Origin: Marinilabilia sp.
GTDB taxonomy: Bacteria; Bacteroidota; Bacteroidia; Bacteroidales; Marinilabiliaceae
Length of the DNA: 39,448 nt
Direction of reading: 5' to 3'
Assembly: GCF_016278715.1 (NCBI RefSeq)
Contig: NZ_JADQBH010000025.1
Span: forward strand, 1 to 39,448
In this document: positions 4,738 through 32,736 of the stretch, piece after piece
Position numbering within the stretch: the stretch's first letter is position 1
Layout: every line of letters begins with the position of its first letter
Position numbers and translations under genes: made by a program
Notes under the pieces: model-generated
What the model was told of the DNA's origin: nothing
What the model saw: the letters and a program-made list of their open reading frames with translations, nothing else
Database searches by the model: none

Positions 4738-5756
4738 ATGGAAGTTTTCGGAACACTCGGGCTCGTTGCAGTCATCATTGTTCTCTTTTTCGTGATTCTG
4801 TATTATGTACCCGTAATATTGTGGTTCTCGGCTCTTGTAACCGGTGTTCGCATCTCACTTCTTCAGTTGGTGCTCATGCGCATCAGGAAAGTGCCGCCAT
4901 CCATTATTGTAGGGCAATGATTGAGGCTCATAAAGCCGGGCTGCAAACCATCAAACGCGATGAACTGGAAGCCCACTTTTTGGCAGGTGGTAACATTGAA
5001 AACGTGGTTCATGCGTTGGTTTCGGCATCAAAAGCCAACATCGACCTGACTTTTCAAATGGGAACCGCCATTGACCTTGCCGGTCGCGATGTTTTTGAAG
5101 CCGTGCAAATGTCAGTAAATCCTAAAGTAATTGACACCCCACCTGTGGCTGCTGTTGCCAAAGATGGTATTCAGCTTATCACCAAAGCCAGAGTTACCGT
5201 CCGTGCCAACATCAAACAGTTGGTAGGTGGTGCCGGAGAAGAAACAGTACTGGCCCGTGTAGGTGAAGGTATCGTTTCATCAATTGGTTCATCCAGTTCG
5301 CACAAGGCGGTACTTGAGAACCCCGATTCTATCTCAAAAGTTGTTTTGAGCAAAGGACTGGATGCCGGTACAGCATTCGAAATTCTTTCCATTGATATTG
5401 CTGATATCGACATAGGTAAAAACATTGGTGCTGAACTTCAGACTGACCAGGCGGAAGCGGATAAAAACATTGCCCAGGCAAAAGCCGAAGAGCGCCGCGC
5501 CATGGCAGTTGCCGAAGAGCAGGAAATGAAAGCCAAAGCTCAGGAGGCCCGTGCACATGTAATCGAAGCAGAAGCCGAGGTTCCAAAAGCCATCGCCGAA
5601 GCCTTCAGATCCGGAAATATCGGAATTATGGATTACATGAAGTACAAAAACATAGATGCTGATACGCAAATGCGTGACTCAATTTCTAAACCCCAGCAGT
5701 CGTCAGGTCGCTCTAAAAACGACAATTCCAACGACAAAGGGAAAAACGATAAATAA
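4738..5756 (+). pseudogene. floA: Flotillin-like protein FloA, split by a one-base frameshift
   Basis: FloA scaffolds membrane microdomains. The first 58 codons (from ATG 4738) encode the membrane anchor and the start of the core, up to RKVPPSIIV, and then hit a stop at 4918. The rest of the protein, [55 protein letters not shown] and the Ala/Glu-rich C-terminal coiled coil, continues in another frame to 5756. The two parts join perfectly at 4911-4912 if one base is restored, giving about 339 residues, close to the normal 330. No slippery heptamer is visible, so a deletion or a sequencing/assembly error is likelier than programmed frameshifting. The well-preserved downstream frame favours an error or a very recent mutation. 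An internal ATG at 4821 would give a protein without the anchor. Confidence 0.85.
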
Positions 5757-7935: not shown

Positions 7936-8126
7936 TAACCTGGAAATCTGTAGTTTTTAAATAGATAGCACCGCAGACTGGCGATGTAAAACTAAAGAAG
8001 AACTCTTTTGTGAGCAGCAAATTTCGATTCATGAAAAATAATTCAACATATTTAATATTTTAATCGAATAAGAATCAACACACTCCATTTTCGACGGAGT
8101 TTTTTTTGAGTTTCACAGCAAAAAAA
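7936..8126. other. Intergenic stretch with no gene
   Basis: Between the two terminators and the tRNA promoter I see only AT-rich sequence without a convincing ORF or repeat. A short minus-strand frame here merely overlaps the end of the esterase gene. Confidence 0.5.
8081..8107 (+). terminator. Second terminator upstream of the tRNA genes
   Basis: ACTCC (8082-8086) and GGAGT (8096-8100) form a short stem followed by seven T. It would stop readthrough into the tRNA operon. Confidence 0.55.
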
Positions 8127-8158
8127 TTTGTGAGTTAAGAATCGAATTAATACATTTG
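8127..8158 (+). promoter_or_regulatory. Consensus promoter of the tRNA operon
   Basis: TTTG (8127-8130), 20 bases, then TACATTTG (8151-8158) match the Bacteroidota -33 TTTG / -7 TAnnTTTG consensus exactly. The first tRNA starts at 8215. Confidence 0.7.
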
Positions 8159-8214
8159 CAACCGCGTTTAGGACAAGCGACACGCTCTACAGACAAAGGT
8201 CTGAAGAACATATT

Positions 8215-8304
<90 letters not shown>

Positions 8305-8313
8305 TCAAAATTT

Positions 8314-8388
8314 CGGGGTATAGCACAGTCCGGTTAGTGTACCTGCTTTGGGAGCAGGGGGTCGCAGGTTCGAATCCTGCTACCCCGA
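8314..8388 (+). tRNA. tRNA-Pro(UGG)
   Basis: The acceptor arms CGGGGTA (8314-8320) and TACCCCG (8381-8387) pair, with A8388 as discriminator. The anticodon stem CCTGC/GCAGG holds loop TTTGGGA with anticodon TGG, and the T-loop is GTTCGAATC. It lies 10 bases after tRNA-Ser and 289 bases before an integrase gene, which makes its 3' end a likely integration target. Confidence 0.95.
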
Positions 8389-8411
8389 CTTTTCAGAAAC
8401 CATCTGAAATC

Positions 8412-8453
8412 AAAAGCCTGTAAATCGTATGATTTTCAGGCTTTTTTGTTTTT
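8412..8453 (+). terminator. Terminator of the tRNA operon
   Basis: AAGCCTG-T-AAATC and GATTT-T-CAGGCTT form a long stem around the loop GTAT, followed by a T-rich tail. Confidence 0.85.
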
Positions 8454-8492
8454 TATAAATCAATTCAATTTAGTTTATTTCAATAAAAATGA

Positions 8493-8634
8493 GAACAAAA
8501 CGGTGAGTCAATTATTTTTTTATTTTTGACTCACCAGATAGCTGCAGATCTTATGAACAAAGGCTTTTCAGCGTTTTCAATCTCATTTGTCTTGAATCGA
8601 ATCAGGTGTTTTTGGTGAACAAAACGGTGAGTCA
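8493..8634. repeat. 18-bp direct repeats and an inverted 9-mer before the integrase
   Basis: GAACAAAACGGTGAGTCA occurs at 8493-8510 and again, identically, at 8617-8634. The inverse of its last nine bases, TGACTCACC, lies at 8527-8535, so the first copy can also form a stem around an AT-rich loop. The second copy ends 43 bases before the integrase ATG. By position these are candidate attachment, arm-binding or operator sites for the integrase. Confidence 0.6.
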
Positions 8635-8677
8635 TTACCAGAACCAGGTCAATTCATTTCAAACATCAAAAAATTGA

Positions 8678-9946
8678 ATGGTTATGAAAACATCAAACAC
8701 CTTTGGCGTACAGTTCATTGTAAGGCCAAGCAGAAAGAAGAAAGACAACAACCGCTTGCCGGTTTACGCCCGCATTTCAGTCAATGGAAGACGTTTAGAA
8801 ATCTCCCTTAAAACCACCATCGCTTCCGAAGATTGGATTCCGGCAAAAGAAAAAGCAAAAGGCTCCAGGACGGAAATAAAAGAGTTTAACCAATACCTAT
8901 CCAATGTCAGGGCAAAAATAAACGGGTGCTATCGTGAGTTACTTATGAGTGACAAGACCATTACAGCCGAAGCAATCAAAAACCTCTATTTAGGCAATAA
9001 ACCTCAAGAACACACTCTTCAGAAGCTTATTACTTATCACAACGAAACATTAAAAGACATCCTGGCCCAGGGAACACTTAAAAATTATTACACGACTCAA
9101 AGATATCTGGAAAAGTTTCTAAAAAATAGATCCGGGAGCATAGATATTGGACTCAGTGATTTGGACTATCAGTTTATCACAGACTTTGAGCACTACCTAA
9201 GAACCTACATCCCTGTTGACCATCAAAAACGACTCTCCAATAACGGAGTCATGAAGCATCTGGAGAGATTAAGGAAGATGGTCAACATGGCAGTAAAAAT
9301 GGAATGGATCAGTAAAGACCCGTTCGCAAGGTACAGATTAAGATTTCAAAAAAAGTCCAGGGAGTTTCTTTCCTCCGGGGAACTTCAGGCAATTGAATCA
9401 AAACAGCTGTCAATTGACCGGTTAGACTACGTACGCGACCTTTTTGTTTTCAGCTGCTATTCAGGACTGGCGTATATTGATGTTATAGAATTAAAGCCCG
9501 AAAACATTAATATTGGTATAGACGGTGAATTATGGATTACCACATATCGGGCAAAAACAAGCCAACCCGTGAGAATTCCTCTTTTGCCCAAAGCTTTAAG
9601 CATTTTAAAGAAGTATGAAAACAATCCACGATCCCTTAATTCCCAAAGAGTCTTTCCCAGGATATCAAATCAAAAATTAAACAGTTACCTAAAGGAATTG
9701 GCAGATTTATGTAATATCAGGAAGCCCCTCACATTTCACATTGCCAGGCACACCTTTGCAACCACGGTAACGCTGACCAACGGAGTCCCCATTGAAACAG
9801 TTTCAAAATTACTCGGCCATACAAGCATCAAAACTACTCAGATATATGCTAAAATAGTAGAAGAAAAAATTTGCTTAGATATGCATAAATTAAGAGATAC
9901 TTTAAATCAAAAACACTCAATATCTCTAATGGCTTCCAAGGGATAA
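8678..9946 (+). CDS. Tyrosine-type site-specific integrase
   Basis: This 422-residue recombinase has the layout usual for Bacteroidota mobile elements. An arm-binding domain lies at about 8-75 (FGVQFIVRPSRKKKDNNRLP, VYARISVNGRRLEISLK), a SAM-like core-binding domain at about 100-215, and the catalytic domain from about 230. Catalytic residues visible are His354-x-x-Arg357 (HIARH), His381 (LLGH) and the nucleophile Tyr390 (TQIYAKI). The first arginine box reads SGLAYIDV, with Ala where many integrases have Arg, a variant known in this lineage. It probably inserted the downstream element at tRNA-Pro. A second ATG at 8684 is equally possible. A bidirectional terminator follows. Confidence 0.9.
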   Translation: MVMKTSNTFGVQFIVRPSRKKKDNNRLPVYARISVNGRRLEISLKTTIASEDWIPAKEKAKGSRTEIKEFNQYLSNVRAKINGCYRELLMSDKTITAEAIKNLYLGNKPQEHTLQKLITYHNETLKDILAQGTLKNYYTTQRYLEKFLKNRSGSIDIGLSDLDYQFITDFEHYLRTYIPVDHQKRLSNNGVMKHLERLRKMVNMAVKMEWISKDPFARYRLRFQKKSREFLSSGELQAIESKQLSIDRLDYVRDLFVFSCYSGLAYIDVIELKPENINIGIDGELWITTYRAKTSQPVRIPLLPKALSILKKYENNPRSLNSQRVFPRISNQKLNSYLKELADLCNIRKPLTFHIARHTFATTVTLTNGVPIETVSKLLGHTSIKTTQIYAKIVEEKICLDMHKLRDTLNQKHSISLMASKG

Positions 9947-9997
9947 AAGAATATGGAGGTATAGAAAATTGTGAAATAATTATTATATTTTGGAGGT

Positions 9998-10043
9998 AAA
10001 ATAAAAAATAAACCTGCTTTTTAGCGGGTTTATTTTTTATTTT
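9998..10043. terminator. Bidirectional terminator after the integrase
   Basis: AAAATAAAAAATAAACC-t-GC and GC-g-GGTTTATTTTTTATTTT form a long stem around TTTTTA, with A and T runs that serve both strands. Confidence 0.75.
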
Positions 10044-10102
10044 CAACAAAATGGTTACTTGGGACTTACAAAGGCATTTTTAACCCGCTTTATTAAACAA
10101 CC

Positions 10103-10936
10103 ATGCTAACCCAACTTGTTGAAGTTAAGGATGAACTTTTATCTAAACTGCAATTAATTAGTAGTACAAATAAATTAAGCCAGGCAATCAAATCTGTAGG
10201 TTTGATTCTCTATTATATTGAAAAGATAAAAAGCATCCTAAACAATGATTCTTTCAAATCTCAAAATGAGGAGATTTATTTTTTTAAAGAAATCAATCCG
10301 GAAATATTTCATAGATTGATTTACTTTAACAAAGTGCTGAAAATTGAGTCTAAACATAAGGTAGGTGGCAAGAAAAGACAAAAAAAGATTCTGAAGAAAG
10401 AACATGAAAAAATTTCAAAATTCTTTAGAAACAACAAAGATTTTTGTTCATACATGCGCTTAAAACATACCCACTTCGATGCCATTTATTTTATAAGAAA
10501 TGAGAATGTCTGGATTAATTATTTTGAATCCTTTGATTATTATTCCTTTGCACCTTTGATTTCTACCCCTCATAGTATTAAGGCCAGCTATCTTTTGGGA
10601 TATGATTTACTTCTGGATTATATAAACTCCAAAACCTCAAGGCTTAAGAACGACCAGGATTTTCAAACAGGAACCGAAAAGTTCAATTTAAAATGGACGG
10701 ATTCTAAAACAGACCTAATAGAACTTATATATGCTCTTCATTCAAAAGGATGTTTTAATTACGGTAGTGCTGAAATAAAGGAGATTGCAACCTGTTTCTC
10801 AGAAATTTTTTCAATCGAACTTGGGGATTTTTATAGAAACTTTTTGGAAATAAAGAACCGGCAAAATCCAACAAAATTACTCACTCAATTGCAAGAAAAA
10901 CTTCAAAACAAAATAGAGGAACAAGATTTACTGTAA
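10103..10936 (+). CDS. rteC: RteC-family regulator of element excision
   Basis: The 277-residue protein matches RteC of the CTnDOT type. Its most diagnostic part is the C-terminal stretch at about 195-260 (LKWTDSKTDLIELIYALHSK, FNYGSAEIKEIATCFSEIF, IELGDFYRNFLEIKNR). The middle YFIRNENVWINYFESFDYYS region is also typical. In Bacteroides conjugative transposons RteC activates the excision genes after induction. Here it lies between the integrase and the excisionase-like gene, the usual place. A TTGG of a weak promoter overlaps a TTGGGACTT motif at 10059-10067 that recurs downstream of the gene. The neighbouring rteAB two-component genes and tetQ are absent. Confidence 0.88.
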   Translation: MLTQLVEVKDELLSKLQLISSTNKLSQAIKSVGLILYYIEKIKSILNNDSFKSQNEEIYFFKEINPEIFHRLIYFNKVLKIESKHKVGGKKRQKKILKKEHEKISKFFRNNKDFCSYMRLKHTHFDAIYFIRNENVWINYFESFDYYSFAPLISTPHSIKASYLLGYDLLLDYINSKTSRLKNDQDFQTGTEKFNLKWTDSKTDLIELIYALHSKGCFNYGSAEIKEIATCFSEIFSIELGDFYRNFLEIKNRQNPTKLLTQLQEKLQNKIEEQDLL

Positions 10937-11118: not shown

Positions 11119-11394
11119 ATGGCTTCTGAAATTATCACTTTAGATGATTTGCAAGTTTTTAAGCAAGAACTCATTAATGACATCCAACGGATTATCAAGG
11201 AAACTTCAGGGCAACCAACAAAAAAATGGCTAAAATCCTATGAGGTTCGAAAAATCCTTAACATTTCTCCTGGTACTTTGCAGAACCTCAGAATAAACGG
11301 CACTTTGCCATACACAAAGATAGGAGGTGTCTTATATTATGATTACTCAGATATTCAGAGTTTACTTGAGAGAAATAAAACAACTTCACTTTAA
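11119..11394 (+). CDS. Excisionase-like helix-turn-helix protein (HTH_17 type)
   Basis: This 91-residue protein has an N-terminal helix (LDDLQVFKQELINDIQRIIK) and a winged HTH of the MerR/excisionase type at about 36-88. The markers are KKWLKSYEVRKILNISPGTL, LRINGTLPYTKIGGVLYYDY and a final SDIQSLLE. Proteins like this are the Xis-type accessory factors of Bacteroidota integrative elements, helping the integrase excise the element, and may also repress their own promoter. Its place after rteC and before the replication genes matches that role. It cannot be told from sequence whether it acts mainly in recombination or in transcription. Confidence 0.82.
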   Translation: MASEIITLDDLQVFKQELINDIQRIIKETSGQPTKKWLKSYEVRKILNISPGTLQNLRINGTLPYTKIGGVLYYDYSDIQSLLERNKTTSL

Positions 11395-13146: not shown

Positions 13147-13227
13147 TTATTCAACAATAGCCATCATTATTGTATCCGCAGTTTCCTGCACAATGCCCTT
13201 GAAATATAATACGGTCATTTTGCTCAT
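13147..13227 (-). CDS. Possible 26-residue small protein after the DUF4405 gene
   Basis: An ATG at 13227, nine bases past the stop of the DUF4405 gene, opens 26 codons (MSKMTVLYFKGIVQETADTI, then MMAIVE) ending in TAA. It has a protein-like amino-acid mix and sits in translational-coupling distance. It has no recognisable domain and may be chance or the remnant of a longer gene. Confidence 0.25.
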   Translation of the reverse strand: MSKMTVLYFKGIVQETADTIMMAIVE

Positions 13228-13235
13228 TTCTTCAA

Positions 13236-13715
13236 TTAATAATCCGTGATCAAATCAAATACTTCTTCTGGGGTTGCATCATTGTTAGTCCAGATTTCCT
13301 CCATCGTCGCTGCTCCGTCAATTGATATTCCGTTTGCTTCAAACCTTTTTAGGGCTTCAACAGAATCAACCTGCAGAGCTCTAAAAACATCATCAATCGG
13401 TGCTTTTATTATTCTTTCTAAAACGATGGTATCAACTTTCGGATTGTAATGTTGCTGAACGATAAACAATATGGACATTACTGCTACGGCCAATGCAGCA
13501 GGGAAGAAAACACCCTTTTTGAAATGGATTTTCAAGGCCTTCCAATTGATTATGACATGGAAAACGGCAAAAATAACAAAGAAAAGGCCAAGGAACTCAT
13601 GTACGACTTCTGTATAACCGTCAAATAAATGGAAAAACATAAGCAAACCGGTAATTCCAACAACCAGGAAAACTAAGGTGATGAAAGGGGTAACGTAACT
13701 TCGATTCAGATTCAT
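13236..13715 (-). CDS. DUF4405 membrane protein
   Basis: The 159-residue protein has three predicted membrane helices at about 9-95 (VTPFITLVFLVVGITGLLMF, EFLGLFFVIFAVFHVIINW, FFPAALAVAVMSILFIV). Histidines fall in FFHLFDGYTEVVHEFLG and in VFHVIINWKALKIHF. This is the DUF4405 pattern, related to b-type cytochrome membrane domains, where paired His residues on helices may bind haem. The C-terminal 60 residues are soluble and acidic (VDSVEALKRFEANGISIDGA). The Crp/Fnr-type regulator gene lies upstream on the same strand, and two palindromes stand in its promoter region. Redox or respiratory control is therefore a reasonable but unproven guess. Confidence 0.75.
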   Translation of the reverse strand: MNLNRSYVTPFITLVFLVVGITGLLMFFHLFDGYTEVVHEFLGLFFVIFAVFHVIINWKALKIHFKKGVFFPAALAVAVMSILFIVQQHYNPKVDTIVLERIIKAPIDDVFRALQVDSVEALKRFEANGISIDGAATMEEIWTNNDATPEEVFDLITDY

Positions 13716-19678: not shown

Positions 19679-22600
19679 ATGATAAATAGTATAATATCTT
19701 TTTCAATCAAAAACAAAGCCCTCATTGGTTTGATGACAATTGGGCTTATTATCGGTGGTATTTGGTCGATGACCAAAGTGCCATTGGATGCCGTGCCCGA
19801 CATTACCAACAACCAGGTGCAGGTGATTACCACCGCGCCCAACCTGGGCACCGAAGACATTGAGCAGTTTGTAACCTATCAGGTGGAACTTTCGGTAGCC
19901 AACCTGCCGGGGGTTATCGAAATACGTTCGGTTTCCCGGTTTGGATTATCGGTGGTTACCATCGTTTTCGAGGACAACATGGGAACCTACCTTCCACGAC
20001 AGTTGGTAAGCGAAGCCCTGTCCGAAATTAAGGAAAAAATCCCGGAGGGTTTTGCCGACCCGTTTATGGCGCCAATCAGTACCGGATTGGGTGAAATTTA
20101 CCAGTACACCCTTGAAGTTCAGCCCGGTTACGACACTGTGTATAACGACATGGAACTGCGCACCATGCAGGAATGGATTGTAAAACGCCAGATGGCAATG
20201 GTGCCGGGGGTAGTTGAAGTAAATTCCTTTGGAGGGCGCGGAAAACAATACGAAATTTCCATTAACCCCGATAAGCTTCGAAGCATGAACCTGACCATGT
20301 CTGACGTTTTTGAGGCTTTAGAAGAGAACAACCAAAACACAGGTGGGGCATACATCGAAAAAAATTTTCAGGCCAACTTTATCCGTGGCGAAGGTTTAAT
20401 GCGTTCGATTGATGATATACGCAACACGCCGGTAGCCAATGTAAACGGGCAACCTGTTTTTATAAGGGATGTAGCCAAAGTAAAGTACGGAAGTTTTGTG
20501 CGTTACGGGGCTTTTACTAAAGACGGTAAAGGCGAAGCCGTAGGCGGTATCGTGATGATGCTGAAGGGTGAAAACTCCAACGATGTAATCAAGGATGTAA
20601 AAGAACGCATGGCGTTAATCCAAAAATCCTTACCCGAAGGGGTGGAAATAAAACCATTCCTCGACCGCAGCAAACTGATAAAAAGCACCACATCCACAGT
20701 TGCCGAAAACCTGTCGATTGGGGCGCTGATTGTAATTTTTGTCCTGGTTATTTTCCTTGGCAATCTTCGGGGCGGTTTACTGGTGGCATCGACCATACCA
20801 CTGGCTTTGCTGTTTGCTTTCATCATGATGAAAGTATTTGGTGTGTGGGCTAACCTGATGAGCCTTGGGGCCATCGACTTCGGGATTCTGGTTGACGGAG
20901 CGGTAATCATTGTGGAGAGCATGATTTTTTACCTACACCGGAACGAATTTATCGGGAAAAAACTGGGATTGCCCCGGCGAAACGAAATAGCTTATAATTC
21001 AGCCAGTAAAATGATGAACTCTGCATTTTTCGGGCAGCTGATTATCCTTATTGTCTTTATCCCGGTACTGGCATTGCAGGGTGTGGAAGGCAAGATGTTT
21101 ATACCCATGGCCATGACCTTTGGATTTGCCGTATTGGGTGTTATGGTACTGTGTCTTACTTACATACCCATGATGGCTGCACTTTTCCTGAGACCACCAA
21201 AAACAGATAAAAAAACCTGGGGTGAGCGTTTTATAGAGAAACTCGAAAACCTGTACGAACCCGTAATTGGCTGGGCTTTGCGCAAAGGAAGACTTGTATT
21301 GGGAATTGCACTTATACTTTTAGTTTCGGGTGGTTTTCTTTTCTCACGCATGGGAGCCGAATTTATTCCTCAACTGGACGAAGGCGATTTTGCATTTCAG
21401 GCTTTCCTGAAACCTGGAACATCCTTATCGGAAGTGCAGGATGCATCTACCCGTCTTGAACAAATAGTACTGGAGAATTTTCCAGATGAAGTGGAGTCTG
21501 TTCAAAGCCGTATCGGAGTTGCTGATATTCCAATGGACCCAATGCCCATGGATATTGCCGATATATTTGTCATCCTTACACCCCAGGGTGAATGGACAAA
21601 GGCCGAATCAAAACAGGAATTGATTGATAAGGTAAAAGAAAAAGTAAGTGTCCTTCCGGGAATAAACTATGAATTTACGCAACCCATCGAGATGCGGTTT
21701 AATGAACTTTTAACCGGTGTCAGGCAGGATGTTGCAATAAAACTATATGGCGATGACCTGGATATGCTGGCCGACAAAGCCGAAGAAATTTCAGGCTTAA
21801 TTGCAGGAATTCAAGGCATTGCAGGTATAAGTGCTGAAAGAACCAGTGGTTTACCTCAAATAACAGTCAGATACAACCGCACCAAACTGGGACAATACGG
21901 GCTCGATATTAAGGACCTCAATACCGTGGTTGAAACGGCATTTAGCGGAGGCGTTGCCGGGGTAATTTACGAAGGCGAACGGATGTTCGACCTCGTGGTT
22001 CGACTTGATGAAGAACACCGCCAAAGCATTGACGACCTTAGGAACCTGTTTGTAAACACCCCCTCCGGCAACCAGGTTCCGTTGAAAGAGGTAGCGGAAA
22101 TCAGCTATCAGCCCGGGCCGATGCAAATAAGCCGCGACAATACCAACAGGCGTACCTATGTAGGTATCAATGTGGAAGGCAGGGACGTTAAATCGCTGGT
22201 GGAAGAAATACAGCAAACCCTTGATGAAGAACTGGAATTGCCTTCGGGTTACTACATCCGCTACGGTGGTGCTTTCGAGAATCTTGAAAGAGCATCAAAA
22301 CGATTGGCTTTAGTTGTGCCACTTGCCCTGGCATTGATATTTATGTTGGTTTTCTTTGCTGTCAAGTCCTTTAAACAAACTCTCATGATTTATGTGGCCA
22401 TTCCCCTGGCTGCTGTGGGCGGAATATTTTCGCTATACCTGCGGGATATGCCTTTCAGTATTTCGGCAGGGGTTGGTTTTATCGTGCTTTTTGGCGTTGC
22501 TGTGTTAAACGGTCTGGTATTGATTAGCGGTTTTAACGAGTTAAAAGAAGAGGGGAAACTTAGCCTTGGAGATATTATCAAAAAAGGTTCCATTCGCCGG

Positions 22601-24022
22601 GTACGCCCTATTTTCCTCACCGCTTCAACTGATATACTCGGTTTCCTGCCTATGGCCATTTCCACATCAGCAGGGGCGGAAGTGCAACGTCCGCTTGCAA
22701 CGGTGGTCATTGGCGGAATGTTAACGTCCACGCTTCTAACACTGGTCGTGTTGCCTGTTTTATATAAAATGGTAGAGTCGGGCAAAACAAAACTGAAAGC
22801 GCCCAAACTCAATACCACGGTAATAATCCTGTTGTTTATTATCGGCGGGCTTGGAATTTCGGGCAGCCTGAAAGCACAGGAAAACAACCTTACCCTTGAA
22901 CAGGCTATCGAACGGGCTAAGGAAAACTATCCTTCCTTAAAAGCCGCTTCGCTCAATGTCGAGAAACAAAAGGCCCTGAAAGCTACAGCTTATGATTTGG
23001 GCAACACCTCTATCTACACCGGAAAGGAGGAGACCGGCAATGGTGAGGTGGGTATTCAAAACCAAATTGGGGTAGCGCAATCGGAAATTGACCTGTTTGG
23101 CATACCTGCCAAAAACAAGCTGAATGAATCGCGTATCAACCTTGCCGAATCAAGGCTTGAATTAACTGAACAGGAGCTGGTCAGAAACGTGAGTTTAGCA
23201 TGGTACCGGGCATTGGTAGCCAAAAAGCAAACCCAATTGTATAACCGGCTCGACAGTGTTTATGCCGATTTCCTCAGGGCTGCCAGATTGCGTTTCGAAA
23301 CCCAGCAAACATCCAAAGTAGCTTATCTGGCGGCTTCTGCCAAATACCAGGAATTAATGGTAAACATGAAACAGGCAGAGAGCGAATACATGGCTTCGTT
23401 GCAAGTGCTGAACCAGTACCTGATGTACCCCGGTGGCGTTGAAATTGCCGATGCCGGCCAGGAATGGGATGAAACCATTCAAACTTCCTACCCGCTTGAT
23501 TCGTTAAACGCCGTCCCTTTGCTTAATCTTTACAGGCAACAGTTGGATGTTTCCGAAGCAGAGTGGAAAGCCGAAAAAGCAAATTTTTTGCCTAAGCTCG
23601 ATTTGGGGTATTCCCGGCAATCAGTCGATGGAACATCCGGTTATTATGGATGGGAGGCCGGTTTCTCCATTCCTTTGCTGTTCTTTTCCCAGTCGGGCAA
23701 AACAAAAGCCGCCCGTATTAATTACGAGATGAACGGGCAGCAATACAAGCAGCGGGCGCTCGAACTGAACGCTTCGTACAAAGAACTCTTAAGCCGGTAC
23801 AGGGTGATGGGCGATGTGCTGGAATATTATAGAAACGAAGCGCTGCCGCTTGCCGACGAACAAATTGAAGCCGCCAACCTGGGTTACCGTTTGGGCAGCC
23901 TCGGTTATATAGAGTTTATCCAGAATACCGAATCAGCCATTAAAACAAGGCAGGAATATTTGTCCCGGCTGGCGGAATATTTCGAAATTAAAGAACAATT
24001 GGAATTCATTACAGGTCAATAA
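19679..24022 (+). CDS. czcA: CzcA/CusA-family heavy-metal RND pump fused to a TolC-type outer-membrane channel
   Basis: The 1447-residue protein is two proteins in one. Residues 1 to about 1045 are an HME-RND inner-membrane antiporter with 12 membrane helices. The helix-4 proton-relay motif DFGILVDGAVIIVES gives Asp400, Asp406 and Glu413, the arrangement of CzcA-type divalent-metal pumps. From about residue 1065, after a helix (TTVIILLFIIGGLGISGSLK) and AQ that look like a former signal peptide, comes a CzcC/TolC-like channel (NLTLEQAIERAKENYPSLKA, later YRLGSLGYIEFIQN). Such fusions are known in Bacteroidota CzcA proteins. They tie pump and exit duct in equal numbers, although it is unknown whether the chain is cleaved. 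The adaptor gene follows 18 bases on. Substrates are probably Zn, Co, Cd or Ni. Confidence 0.92.
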   Translation: MINSIISFSIKNKALIGLMTIGLIIGGIWSMTKVPLDAVPDITNNQVQVITTAPNLGTEDIEQFVTYQVELSVANLPGVIEIRSVSRFGLSVVTIVFEDNMGTYLPRQLVSEALSEIKEKIPEGFADPFMAPISTGLGEIYQYTLEVQPGYDTVYNDMELRTMQEWIVKRQMAMVPGVVEVNSFGGRGKQYEISINPDKLRSMNLTMSDVFEALEENNQNTGGAYIEKNFQANFIRGEGLMRSIDDIRNTPVANVNGQPVFIRDVAKVKYGSFVRYGAFTKDGKGEAVGGIVMMLKGENSNDVIKDVKERMALIQKSLPEGVEIKPFLDRSKLIKSTTSTVAENLSIGALIVIFVLVIFLGNLRGGLLVASTIPLALLFAFIMMKVFGVWANLMSLGAIDFGILVDGAVIIVESMIFYLHRNEFIGKKLGLPRRNEIAYNSASKMMNSAFFGQLIILIVFIPVLALQGVEGKMFIPMAMTFGFAVLGVMVLCLTYIPMMAALFLRPPKTDKKTWGERFIEKLENLYEPVIGWALRKGRLVLGIALILLVSGGFLFSRMGAEFIPQLDEGDFAFQAFLKPGTSLSEVQDASTRLEQIVLENFPDEVESVQSRIGVADIPMDPMPMDIADIFVILTPQGEWTKAESKQELIDKVKEKVSVLPGINYEFTQPIEMRFNELLTGVRQDVAIKLYGDDLDMLADKAEEISGLIAGIQGIAGISAERTSGLPQITVRYNRTKLGQYGLDIKDLNTVVETAFSGGVAGVIYEGERMFDLVVRLDEEHRQSIDDLRNLFVNTPSGNQVPLKEVAEISYQPGPMQISRDNTNRRTYVGINVEGRDVKSLVEEIQQTLDEELELPSGYYIRYGGAFENLERASKRLALVVPLALALIFMLVFFAVKSFKQTLMIYVAIPLAAVGGIFSLYLRDMPFSISAGVGFIVLFGVAVLNGLVLISGFNELKEEGKLSLGDIIKKGSIRRVRPIFLTASTDILGFLPMAISTSAGAEVQRPLATVVIGGMLTSTLLTLVVLPVLYKMVESGKTKLKAPKLNTTVIILLFIIGGLGISGSLKAQENNLTLEQAIERAKENYPSLKAASLNVEKQKALKATAYDLGNTSIYTGKEETGNGEVGIQNQIGVAQSEIDLFGIPAKNKLNESRINLAESRLELTEQELVRNVSLAWYRALVAKKQTQLYNRLDSVYADFLRAARLRFETQQTSKVAYLAASAKYQELMVNMKQAESEYMASLQVLNQYLMYPGGVEIADAGQEWDETIQTSYPLDSLNAVPLLNLYRQQLDVSEAEWKAEKANFLPKLDLGYSRQSVDGTSGYYGWEAGFSIPLLFFSQSGKTKAARINYEMNGQQYKQRALELNASYKELLSRYRVMGDVLEYYRNEALPLADEQIEAANLGYRLGSLGYIEFIQNTESAIKTRQEYLSRLAEYFEIKEQLEFITGQ

Positions 24023-31642: not shown

Positions 31643-32155
31643 ATGACTACACGAGAACATAAACGAACATCCAATATCAAAACTTTTGATCCCCGGCATA
31701 GCATAAAACGTGCTGTTAAGACGAGGGCTGCCGGTTCCAGGTGGGTTATTGTCACTTCAAAAGGAAAAGTTACATGGAGCAATAAGATAGAGAGGGTTGC
31801 TGCAATTCGTAACGGTGTGCCTTACGAATCGGTGGAAGTTATTGGCAAAAAAGCAAACCTGCCGGTTAAGCATTTATTACATTATCTGGGCGTTCCCCAA
31901 ACCACATACAACAAGAAGAAAAAAGAGAACGACCTACTAAGTGGCAGAAACAGTGAGGTAATACTTATATTATCAGAAGTACTTGATTTTGGACTTGAAG
32001 TATTCAATAATGAAGAAGAAAAGTTTCACCGTTGGTTGAGAAAAACAAACGTCTCATTAGGAAATGTACCGCCGGAAAGCTTGTTTGATTCAGTAACGGG
32101 GATACAGGAGGTTCGTAACACCCTAAGTAGATTGGAGTACGGAAACCTGGCTTAA
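31643..32155 (+). CDS. Xre/MbcA/ParS-type antitoxin of a RES toxin-antitoxin pair
   Basis: The 170-residue protein has a basic N-terminus and a region at about 50-105 with an HTH-like Xre part (VEVIGKKANLPVKHLLHYLG, then PQTTYNKKKKENDL). The C-terminal toxin-binding domain of the MbcA/ParS (DUF2384) kind follows (EVLDFGLEVFNNEEEKFHRW, LGNVPPESLFDSVTGIQEVR and a final LSRLEYG). LGNxxPxxLxxxxxGxxxVxxxLxxxxxG is the family hallmark. It should neutralise the RES protein encoded 95 bases downstream and repress its own promoter through the palindrome at 31603-31620. Confidence 0.88.
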   Translation: MTTREHKRTSNIKTFDPRHSIKRAVKTRAAGSRWVIVTSKGKVTWSNKIERVAAIRNGVPYESVEVIGKKANLPVKHLLHYLGVPQTTYNKKKKENDLLSGRNSEVILILSEVLDFGLEVFNNEEEKFHRWLRKTNVSLGNVPPESLFDSVTGIQEVRNTLSRLEYGNLA

Positions 32156-32250
32156 TAAGACGATCATGGAGCTTTGATTTCTTAAATCTGCCTCCATGTA
32201 TAAAAGAATCGCAAATTCCATTCGACCTTAAATAATCATTTTTTATACGG

Positions 32251-32736
32251 ATGAAAGTTTTCAGAATTGAAAGGGAGAAATACCTCGAAACCACATTGGA
32301 AGGAATTGGCGCAGCCTTAACCGAAGGCTATCGCTGGAATAGTTTAAGCACCTATTTGGTTTATACTGCCGAATCGAGGGCATTGGCAACATTAGAGGTA
32401 TCGGTACACCTTGATCTAACTGAAGACCTTCCCACGGACAGACATTTTGTAGAAATCGATATTCCGGATGATATTATGATGCTTGAATTAGAAACGGAGG
32501 ATCTACCCGACCGCTGGGACTCAAAACCCCCAATATTGGAGACTCAGTTTATAGGTGATGATTTCGTGAAAGAAAAAAATGCTGCTGTTTTAAAAGTCCC
32601 AAGTAGTATCGTACCACAAGAATTCAATTACCTAATAAATCCCAAACACTCCGATTCTGAGCGGATTTCTGTCGTATCTGCTACGCCTTTCAATTTTGAC
32701 AGCAGATTTCAACAACCGGGGATAAAAGAGACGTAA
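32251..32736 (+). CDS. RES-domain toxin (NAD+ phosphorylase family)
   Basis: The 161-residue protein carries the RES core: GYRWNSLSTYLVYTAESRAL followed by ATLEVSVHL. Arg28, Tyr38 and Glu49 have the spacing (10 and 11) of the active-site Arg, Tyr and Glu in characterised Res toxins. Later, SSIVPQEFNYLINPKHSD and the closing TPFNFDSRF are also typical. RES toxins degrade NAD+ by phosphorolysis and stall growth until the antitoxin returns. The 95-base gap to the antitoxin is longer than in most such operons, but no terminator is seen, so one transcript is likely. Confidence 0.88.
   Translation: MKVFRIEREKYLETTLEGIGAALTEGYRWNSLSTYLVYTAESRALATLEVSVHLDLTEDLPTDRHFVEIDIPDDIMMLELETEDLPDRWDSKPPILETQFIGDDFVKEKNAAVLKVPSSIVPQEFNYLINPKHSDSERISVVSATPFNFDSRFQQPGIKET

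Follow-up and report, generated by a model that had tools for sequence, protein, structure and literature searches.

What do two identical repeats do in the short region between a tRNA-Pro gene and a tyrosine integrase gene of Marinilabilia? The window, that is, the whole 39,448-nucleotide stretch analysed, is contig C210 of a draft genome (G000; 4.95 Mb, 326 contigs, 94% complete). It carries a tRNA-Ser/tRNA-Pro(TGG) pair followed by genes for the integrase, an RteC protein and an HTH_17 protein. We conclude that the two 18-bp repeats, together with an inverted half-copy, very probably serve the element's own tyrosine integrase as arm-type binding sites in the left arm (P arm). The features concerned are:

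8314–8389, + strand: tRNA-Pro(TGG), intact, the integration target at the element's left end (ARAGORN, Rfam)
8375–8396, + strand: 22-bp att core copy on the attL side, TCCTGCTACCCCGACTTTTCAG; second exact copy at C306:2032–2053 (attR side)
8412–8445, + strand: terminator-like hairpin 3' of the tRNA, 15-bp arms, 93% complementary
8493–8510, + strand: candidate arm-type site pair 1, GAACAAAAC and GGTGAGTCA about 12 bp apart, the pairing being deduced from relatives
8526–8535, − strand: inverted half of the arm word, TTGACTCACC
8617–8634, + strand: candidate arm-type site pair 2
8678–9946, + strand: tyrosine integrase, 422 aa (Arm-DNA-bind_5, Phage_int_SAM_5, Phage_integrase)
10103–10936, + strand: RteC-family protein (PF09357, E 1.8e-64)
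11119–11394, + strand: HTH_17 protein (PF12728, E 6.8e-10), putative excisionase or directionality factor

Repeats between the tRNA and the integrase

The original prediction described two identical 18-bp repeats 124 bp apart between tRNA-Pro and the integrase, accompanied by an inverted 9-mer, and all of these were found. GAACAAAACGGTGAGTCA occurs exactly twice in the window (8493–8510 and 8617–8634, 124 bp from start to start), with no further match there at up to three mismatches. Shuffling gave 0.04 expected matches per shuffle, and two matches in none of 100 shuffles. The inverted piece measures 9 bp against copy 2 and 10 bp against copy 1, where GGTGAGTCAA at 8502–8511 pairs with TTGACTCACC at 8526–8535; it lies 14 bp downstream of copy 1. 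The integrase start codon follows 43 bp after the end of copy 2. The window's own tandem partner at 12 bp is weak (4/9 matches). Comparison with the relative L073 (GAGAACTAAAAGGTGAACCAAATTA) suggests that the window 18-mer combines two sites offset by 12 bp, of which the first has diverged.

Two further genomes of the genus, G003 and G004, retain the two copies and the inverted partner beside the same tRNA, the copies being spaced by 124 and 123 bp, respectively, and copy 2 of G004 carrying one base change. The G004 integrase is disrupted by stops and a frame change, and so looks like a decayed copy. That the repeats arose by chance, or lack a function, is scarcely credible: the window does hold two full copies only, but the shuffle result, the conservation in G003 and G004 and the layout survey described below all speak against it.

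Core and probable far end of the element

A BLAST search of the tRNA-to-integrase region against its own genome returned a match on contig C306. This contig carries, in order, GAACAAAACGGTGAG (1956–1970), 61 bp of other sequence, TCCTGCTACCCCGACTTTTCAG (2032–2053) and then a terminator resembling that of the tRNA. The exact 22-bp core TCCTGCTACCCCGACTTTTCAG has two copies in the 4.95-Mb draft, one each on C210 and C306. The exact 15-mer GAACAAAACGGTGAG has three, two on C210 and one on C306, and a control with the reversed pattern had none. As first proposed, the tRNA 3' end is unrepeated within the window (the 22-bp core occurs once on the + strand and not on the − strand), and a search for a further copy of the repeat at another end recovered 15 of its 18 bases on C306. 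The same pair of ends is present in G003, on contigs C11 and C9, with an arm-to-core gap of 61 bp as in G000. On the element side, C306 and G003:C9 share 95% identity over 1.75 kb. The DNA beyond attR is unlike between G000 and G003, so the chromosomal flank is without synteny confirmation.

The predicted recombination core is the 3' end of tRNA-Pro(TGG), 8375–8396, and not the repeats; the arm word GAACAAAACGGTGAG differs from the core sequence TCCTGCTACCCCGACTTTTCAG. The simplest reading places attL on C210 and attR on C306, with arm words inside each end, an assignment that we infer across two separate contigs. The matching copy on C306 probably marks the far end of the island. Because the third copy of the word lies near the second core copy, the sites are not confined to the promoter side of the integrase gene. 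Since the word stands beside both core copies, each arm of the deduced attP would contain it, as is expected of arm-type sites.

Of the two readings in the original prediction, attL arm sites and an integrase operator, the far-end copy, on a contig other than that of the integrase, speaks for the first rather than for an operator alone. An operator bound by the integrase or another repressor, with no role in recombination, would suit the 43-bp distance between copy 2 and the start codon and the inverted pair, a typical operator feature. We nevertheless consider it improbable, as in G000 and G003 alike the word accompanies the second core copy, away from the integrase contig, and as 11 of 17 right ends among relatives carry their own word (see below).

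Within the genus no empty site turned up: 3' of tRNA-Pro(TGG), G001 carries a different sequence, and the G002 contig stops at the tRNA. In G004, exact 15-mers lie beside the integrase (C61) and in a relic module on C23; there was no exact 15-mer at the right end of this element, and one match with one mismatch was found on C30. Several other candidates were rejected. A probe for a second tRNA end, GAATCCTGCTACCCCGAC at up to two mismatches, found only C210 and the tRNA-Pro(CGG) on C105, missing C306 because the copy there is shorter. The arm-like match GAATAAAACGGTGAG at C105:34070 sits in a recurring stretch 3.4 kb past tRNA-Pro, with no copy of a tRNA end seen beside it. The G001 match GAACAAAGCGGTGAG falls within an apparent threonyl-tRNA synthetase coding stretch (read by eye). 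Matches with three mismatches on C207 and C286 had no BLAST match to window 8000–10100 and no tRNA.

Left-end modules also occur apart from an integrase. In G003, C29 (L050, 4076–4353, − strand) has an intact tRNA-Pro(CGG), the terminator and both arm repeats, extending as far as the base that corresponds to window position 8661, and includes a fourth exact 15-mer and a one-mismatch copy. Lacking an adjacent integrase, L050 is a putative relic left arm of an earlier element. In G004, an apparent foreign right end abuts the same relic arm module on C23 (L048, 1680–2060) and has its own tandem word, GTGTGATACA, 11 bp apart; this arrangement is likely a tandem insertion at tRNA-Pro. Following tRNA-Pro at 1600–1674 of another locus (L022, G024:C25) is an apparent degenerate start of a similar integrase (read by eye), another sign that tRNA-Pro is repeatedly targeted. 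The modules at G003:C29 and G004:C23 indicate that old elements were once inserted here, and the left module, with both copies, standing beside tRNA-Pro(CGG) without an integrase or after a foreign right end is what might be expected had the repeats been recombination cores or scars of nested insertions at the tRNA. That explanation is very unlikely, however, as it is the tRNA 3' end that was found duplicated at the boundaries, and arm words differ among elements that share a tRNA-Pro target.

Arm-type sites remain our preferred reading of the repeats. The integrase has arm-binding, core-binding and catalytic domains (Pfam), the N-terminal arm-binding domain being PF17293 Arm-DNA-bind_5 at residues 19–101 (E 7.7e-12). 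This domain would hold the arm sites, with a single right-arm copy (15 of 18 bases) separated by 61 bp from the second core, while the catalytic domain would cut at the core in the tRNA-Pro 3' end. The integrase would bridge arm and core in the fashion of lambda Int. We infer that C210 and C306 hold the two ends of one element, and likewise the binding, bridging and excision. As the left-arm sites lie between the tRNA and the integrase gene, the bound integrase may repress that gene as well, for which KplE1 intS would be a precedent.

Comparison with known systems places these features in context. Arm-type sites are a textbook feature. An account of lambda Int (PMC4880445) assigns the N-terminal domain to arm-type sites and the C-terminal domains to core sites, and describes, as in the window element, a further set of DNA words that do not resemble the core and lie in both flanking arms (P and P'). 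In contrast to lambda, the left-arm copies of the window lie directly upstream of the integrase gene in a tandem and inverted layout. The KplE1 prophage likewise combines a tRNA 3' end, arm sites and an integrase gene transcribed away from attL, and its attL overlaps the intS promoter, a point that also counts for an operator; autorepression is documented there (PMC2951348), whereas for the window it is a prediction, and KplE1 is an E. coli prophage with its own words.

The IntCTnDOT subgroup (CTnDOT, NBU1) is similar in its Bacteroidota host and its arm-binding, core-binding and catalytic domains. An RteC-family gene follows the integrase gene in the window, and RteC is linked with CTnDOT. 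Residue 263 of the window integrase lies in a GLAYIDV stretch, which we take to be the place of the first catalytic arginine, and that arginine appears to be absent. NBU1 is reported to insert into a tRNA 3' end, going by the title of Shoemaker 1996. The window element differs from CTnDOT and NBU1 in targeting tRNA-Pro(TGG). The likeness is read from domains, the gene neighbour and the arginine position. The CTnDOT integrase also lacks the first catalytic arginine, and the subgroup has an arm domain, with IntDOT contacting subterminal arm sites, according to PMC8138268.

Deeper in the window the cargo is of the metal-resistance type (Pfam, NCBIfam): ACR_tran/OEP and CusA/CzcA-type RND pumps, HlyD, a multicopper oxidase and cation efflux. 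A single 1447-aa ORF at 19679–24022 fuses an RND pump (ACR_tran) to an outer-membrane efflux protein (OEP), and an Xre/RES-type toxin-antitoxin pair lies within the island at 31643–32736. No tra family was found among the window ORFs run on Pfam/NCBIfam, the middle of the element being outside the window. Inside the right end on G003:C9 (L058–L060) are defence-type genes: type I restriction, Schlafen/AlbA and SIR2. Among the related loci, a cassette-like repeat of about 120–200 bp recurs between small genes (L052:3381–3525, L048:8763–8899, and L053:9067–9219 and 13218–13411; 74–86% pairwise identity), and L048:3383–3549 and 5491–5549 are group II intron pieces (Rfam).

Arm words and their layout among integrase relatives

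Relatives of the window integrase at E≤1e-60 turned up in at least 94 of the 393 genomes searched within the order, with up to four first-look candidates scored per genome. The own genome has at least one such relative (four of 12 first-look candidates scored). Loci came from this search (30), from stretches chosen among its listed matches (60) and from an earlier set of 18, of which 16 were used and L046 and L047 left out. Dropping two partial entries took the 106 loci to 104, representing 77 distinct proteins; one of these was dropped for its short upstream region, and the remaining 76 were clustered at 80% identity into 55 groups. ARAGORN called a tRNA within 700 bp upstream of the integrase gene for 54 of the 77, with isotypes that include Pro, Ser, Phe, Lys, Asp, Asn, Val, Arg, Leu, Glu, Gln, Met and Cys.

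We scored the region from the tRNA terminator to the integrase gene for a 9-nt word with a copy 11–13 bp before it, counting also a copy in inverted orientation no more than about 45 bp away and a further one closer to the integrase. This layout score superseded two word finders, the first of which frequently caught tRNA terminators and the second of which singled out 38 of 76 regions at ≤1/20 shuffles. The score, into which terminators may enter in regions without a recognised tRNA, averaged 12.31 over the 55 clusters, against 9.46 for dinucleotide shuffles (30 replicate means, largest 9.78). As controls, regions just downstream of the integrase gene averaged 9.69 (n=54), and random windows from 55 loci averaged 9.46. 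A score of 13 or more was reached by 27/55 upstream regions and 0/54 downstream ones. In 31/55 clusters the score was matched by at most one of 30 shuffles; the other 24 were less clear. About half of the sampled relatives clearly keep the layout with different words.

The words include GGTGAGTCA in the window, GTGAACCAA in L073 and L123, GGTGCCCTA in L074, TGAACACCT in L032 and ATTGGACTT in L096 and L148. Forms of GTGAGT occur with tRNA-Pro (window), tRNA-Gln (L076), tRNA-Ser (L099) and tRNA-Arg (L130, no better than shuffles), and elements at tRNA-Pro have at least four different words. In titles and abstract openings, with subscription papers mostly outside, we found no published description of these words or of the shared layout; we make no claim of priority.

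Right ends were compared for 17 elements, the window's included, that have a second core copy downstream, or on C306 for the window. The region 30–110 bp inside the core was ranked against all 17 left arms. The element's own left arm came first for eight (in G322C9 owing to a stretch other than the arm word), second for four, fourth for one and 14th–16th for four. With left arms read by eye, 11 of the 17 right ends share 10–23 nt with their own arm word, starting 48–84 bp before the core; the other six have no long piece of it. Tandems of 11–12 bp at right ends averaged 6.56, against 5.80 in 200 shuffle sets (largest 6.33; n=18, the 18th right end having been located via its own arm word), and at several right ends the best tandem differs from the arm word.

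The clearest example is G005:C3, an element of the same family that occupies tRNA-Pro(CGG) and has both ends on one contig, bounding a 45.4-kb stretch. Its 19-bp core CGGTCACCCCGACCAAGTG is at 128834 and 174178, and its 20-bp arm sequence ATGAGAACCAAAAGGTGAAC at 128947 and 174096. Defence-type genes in this element (L170) include MmeI, Schlafen/AlbA and CHAT/TPR.

Arm word and arm-binding domain

Word similarity was compared with domain identity by a Mantel test on 32 clusters whose layout score reached at least 12 and whose protein was no shorter than 370 aa; L097 was excluded because its start was miscalled, giving length 0. The correlation was highest for the arm domain (r 0.374), followed by the catalytic (0.328) and core-binding (0.245) domains. 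When the catalytic domain was controlled for, the arm domain kept a partial r of 0.271 (p 0.001); with the arm domain controlled for, the partial r was 0.197 (p 0.002) for the catalytic and 0.071 (p 0.115) for the core-binding domain. Repeating the test at a score of at least 13 (n=26) gave 0.428 for the arm domain, 0.379 for the catalytic domain and 0.298 for the arm given the catalytic domain. In these sequence comparisons the arm domain is the best predictor of the word, somewhat ahead of the catalytic domain, and ancestry partly remains: as the word also correlates with the catalytic domain, shared ancestry accounts for part of the link. The word of L074 is unlike those of L071, L073 and L123 (similarity 5–6) at 60–65% arm-domain identity. 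A shared tRNA target adds little to word similarity, which for pairs below 50% arm identity was 4.73 with the same tRNA (n=30) and 4.45 with different ones (n=262).

The correlation with the arm domain also bears on whether the sites belong to the excisionase-like HTH_17 protein (11119–11394) or another accessory protein instead. Excisionases bind repeated sites in att arms and the HTH_17 gene is near the integrase gene, but the word follows a domain of the integrase itself, and we regard an accessory protein as unlikely.

With the repeats read as integrase arm-type sites, a broader proposal is that the tRNA-inserting integrases of Bacteroidota share one arm-site grammar, in which exchange of the word goes with exchange of the arm-binding domain, regardless of the tRNA target. 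The grammar would consist of a pair of words spaced by about 12 bp, an inverted word some 25 bp further on and one near the integrase gene, with the word again at the right end. We hold this tentatively, our doubt being about equal to our belief. If true, it would give a readable code from arm domain to DNA and allow both island ends to be called from sequence alone.

The sites themselves would be a further example of an already known arm-type feature, and the word-swapping survey is the interesting part. For the Marinilabilia element, the arm word and the duplicated tRNA end would locate both boundaries of a metal-resistance island despite a broken assembly. If the survey holds, arm words would be readable for many Bacteroidota elements, making right ends easier to locate, and the DNA specificity of the arm-binding domain would become directly testable.
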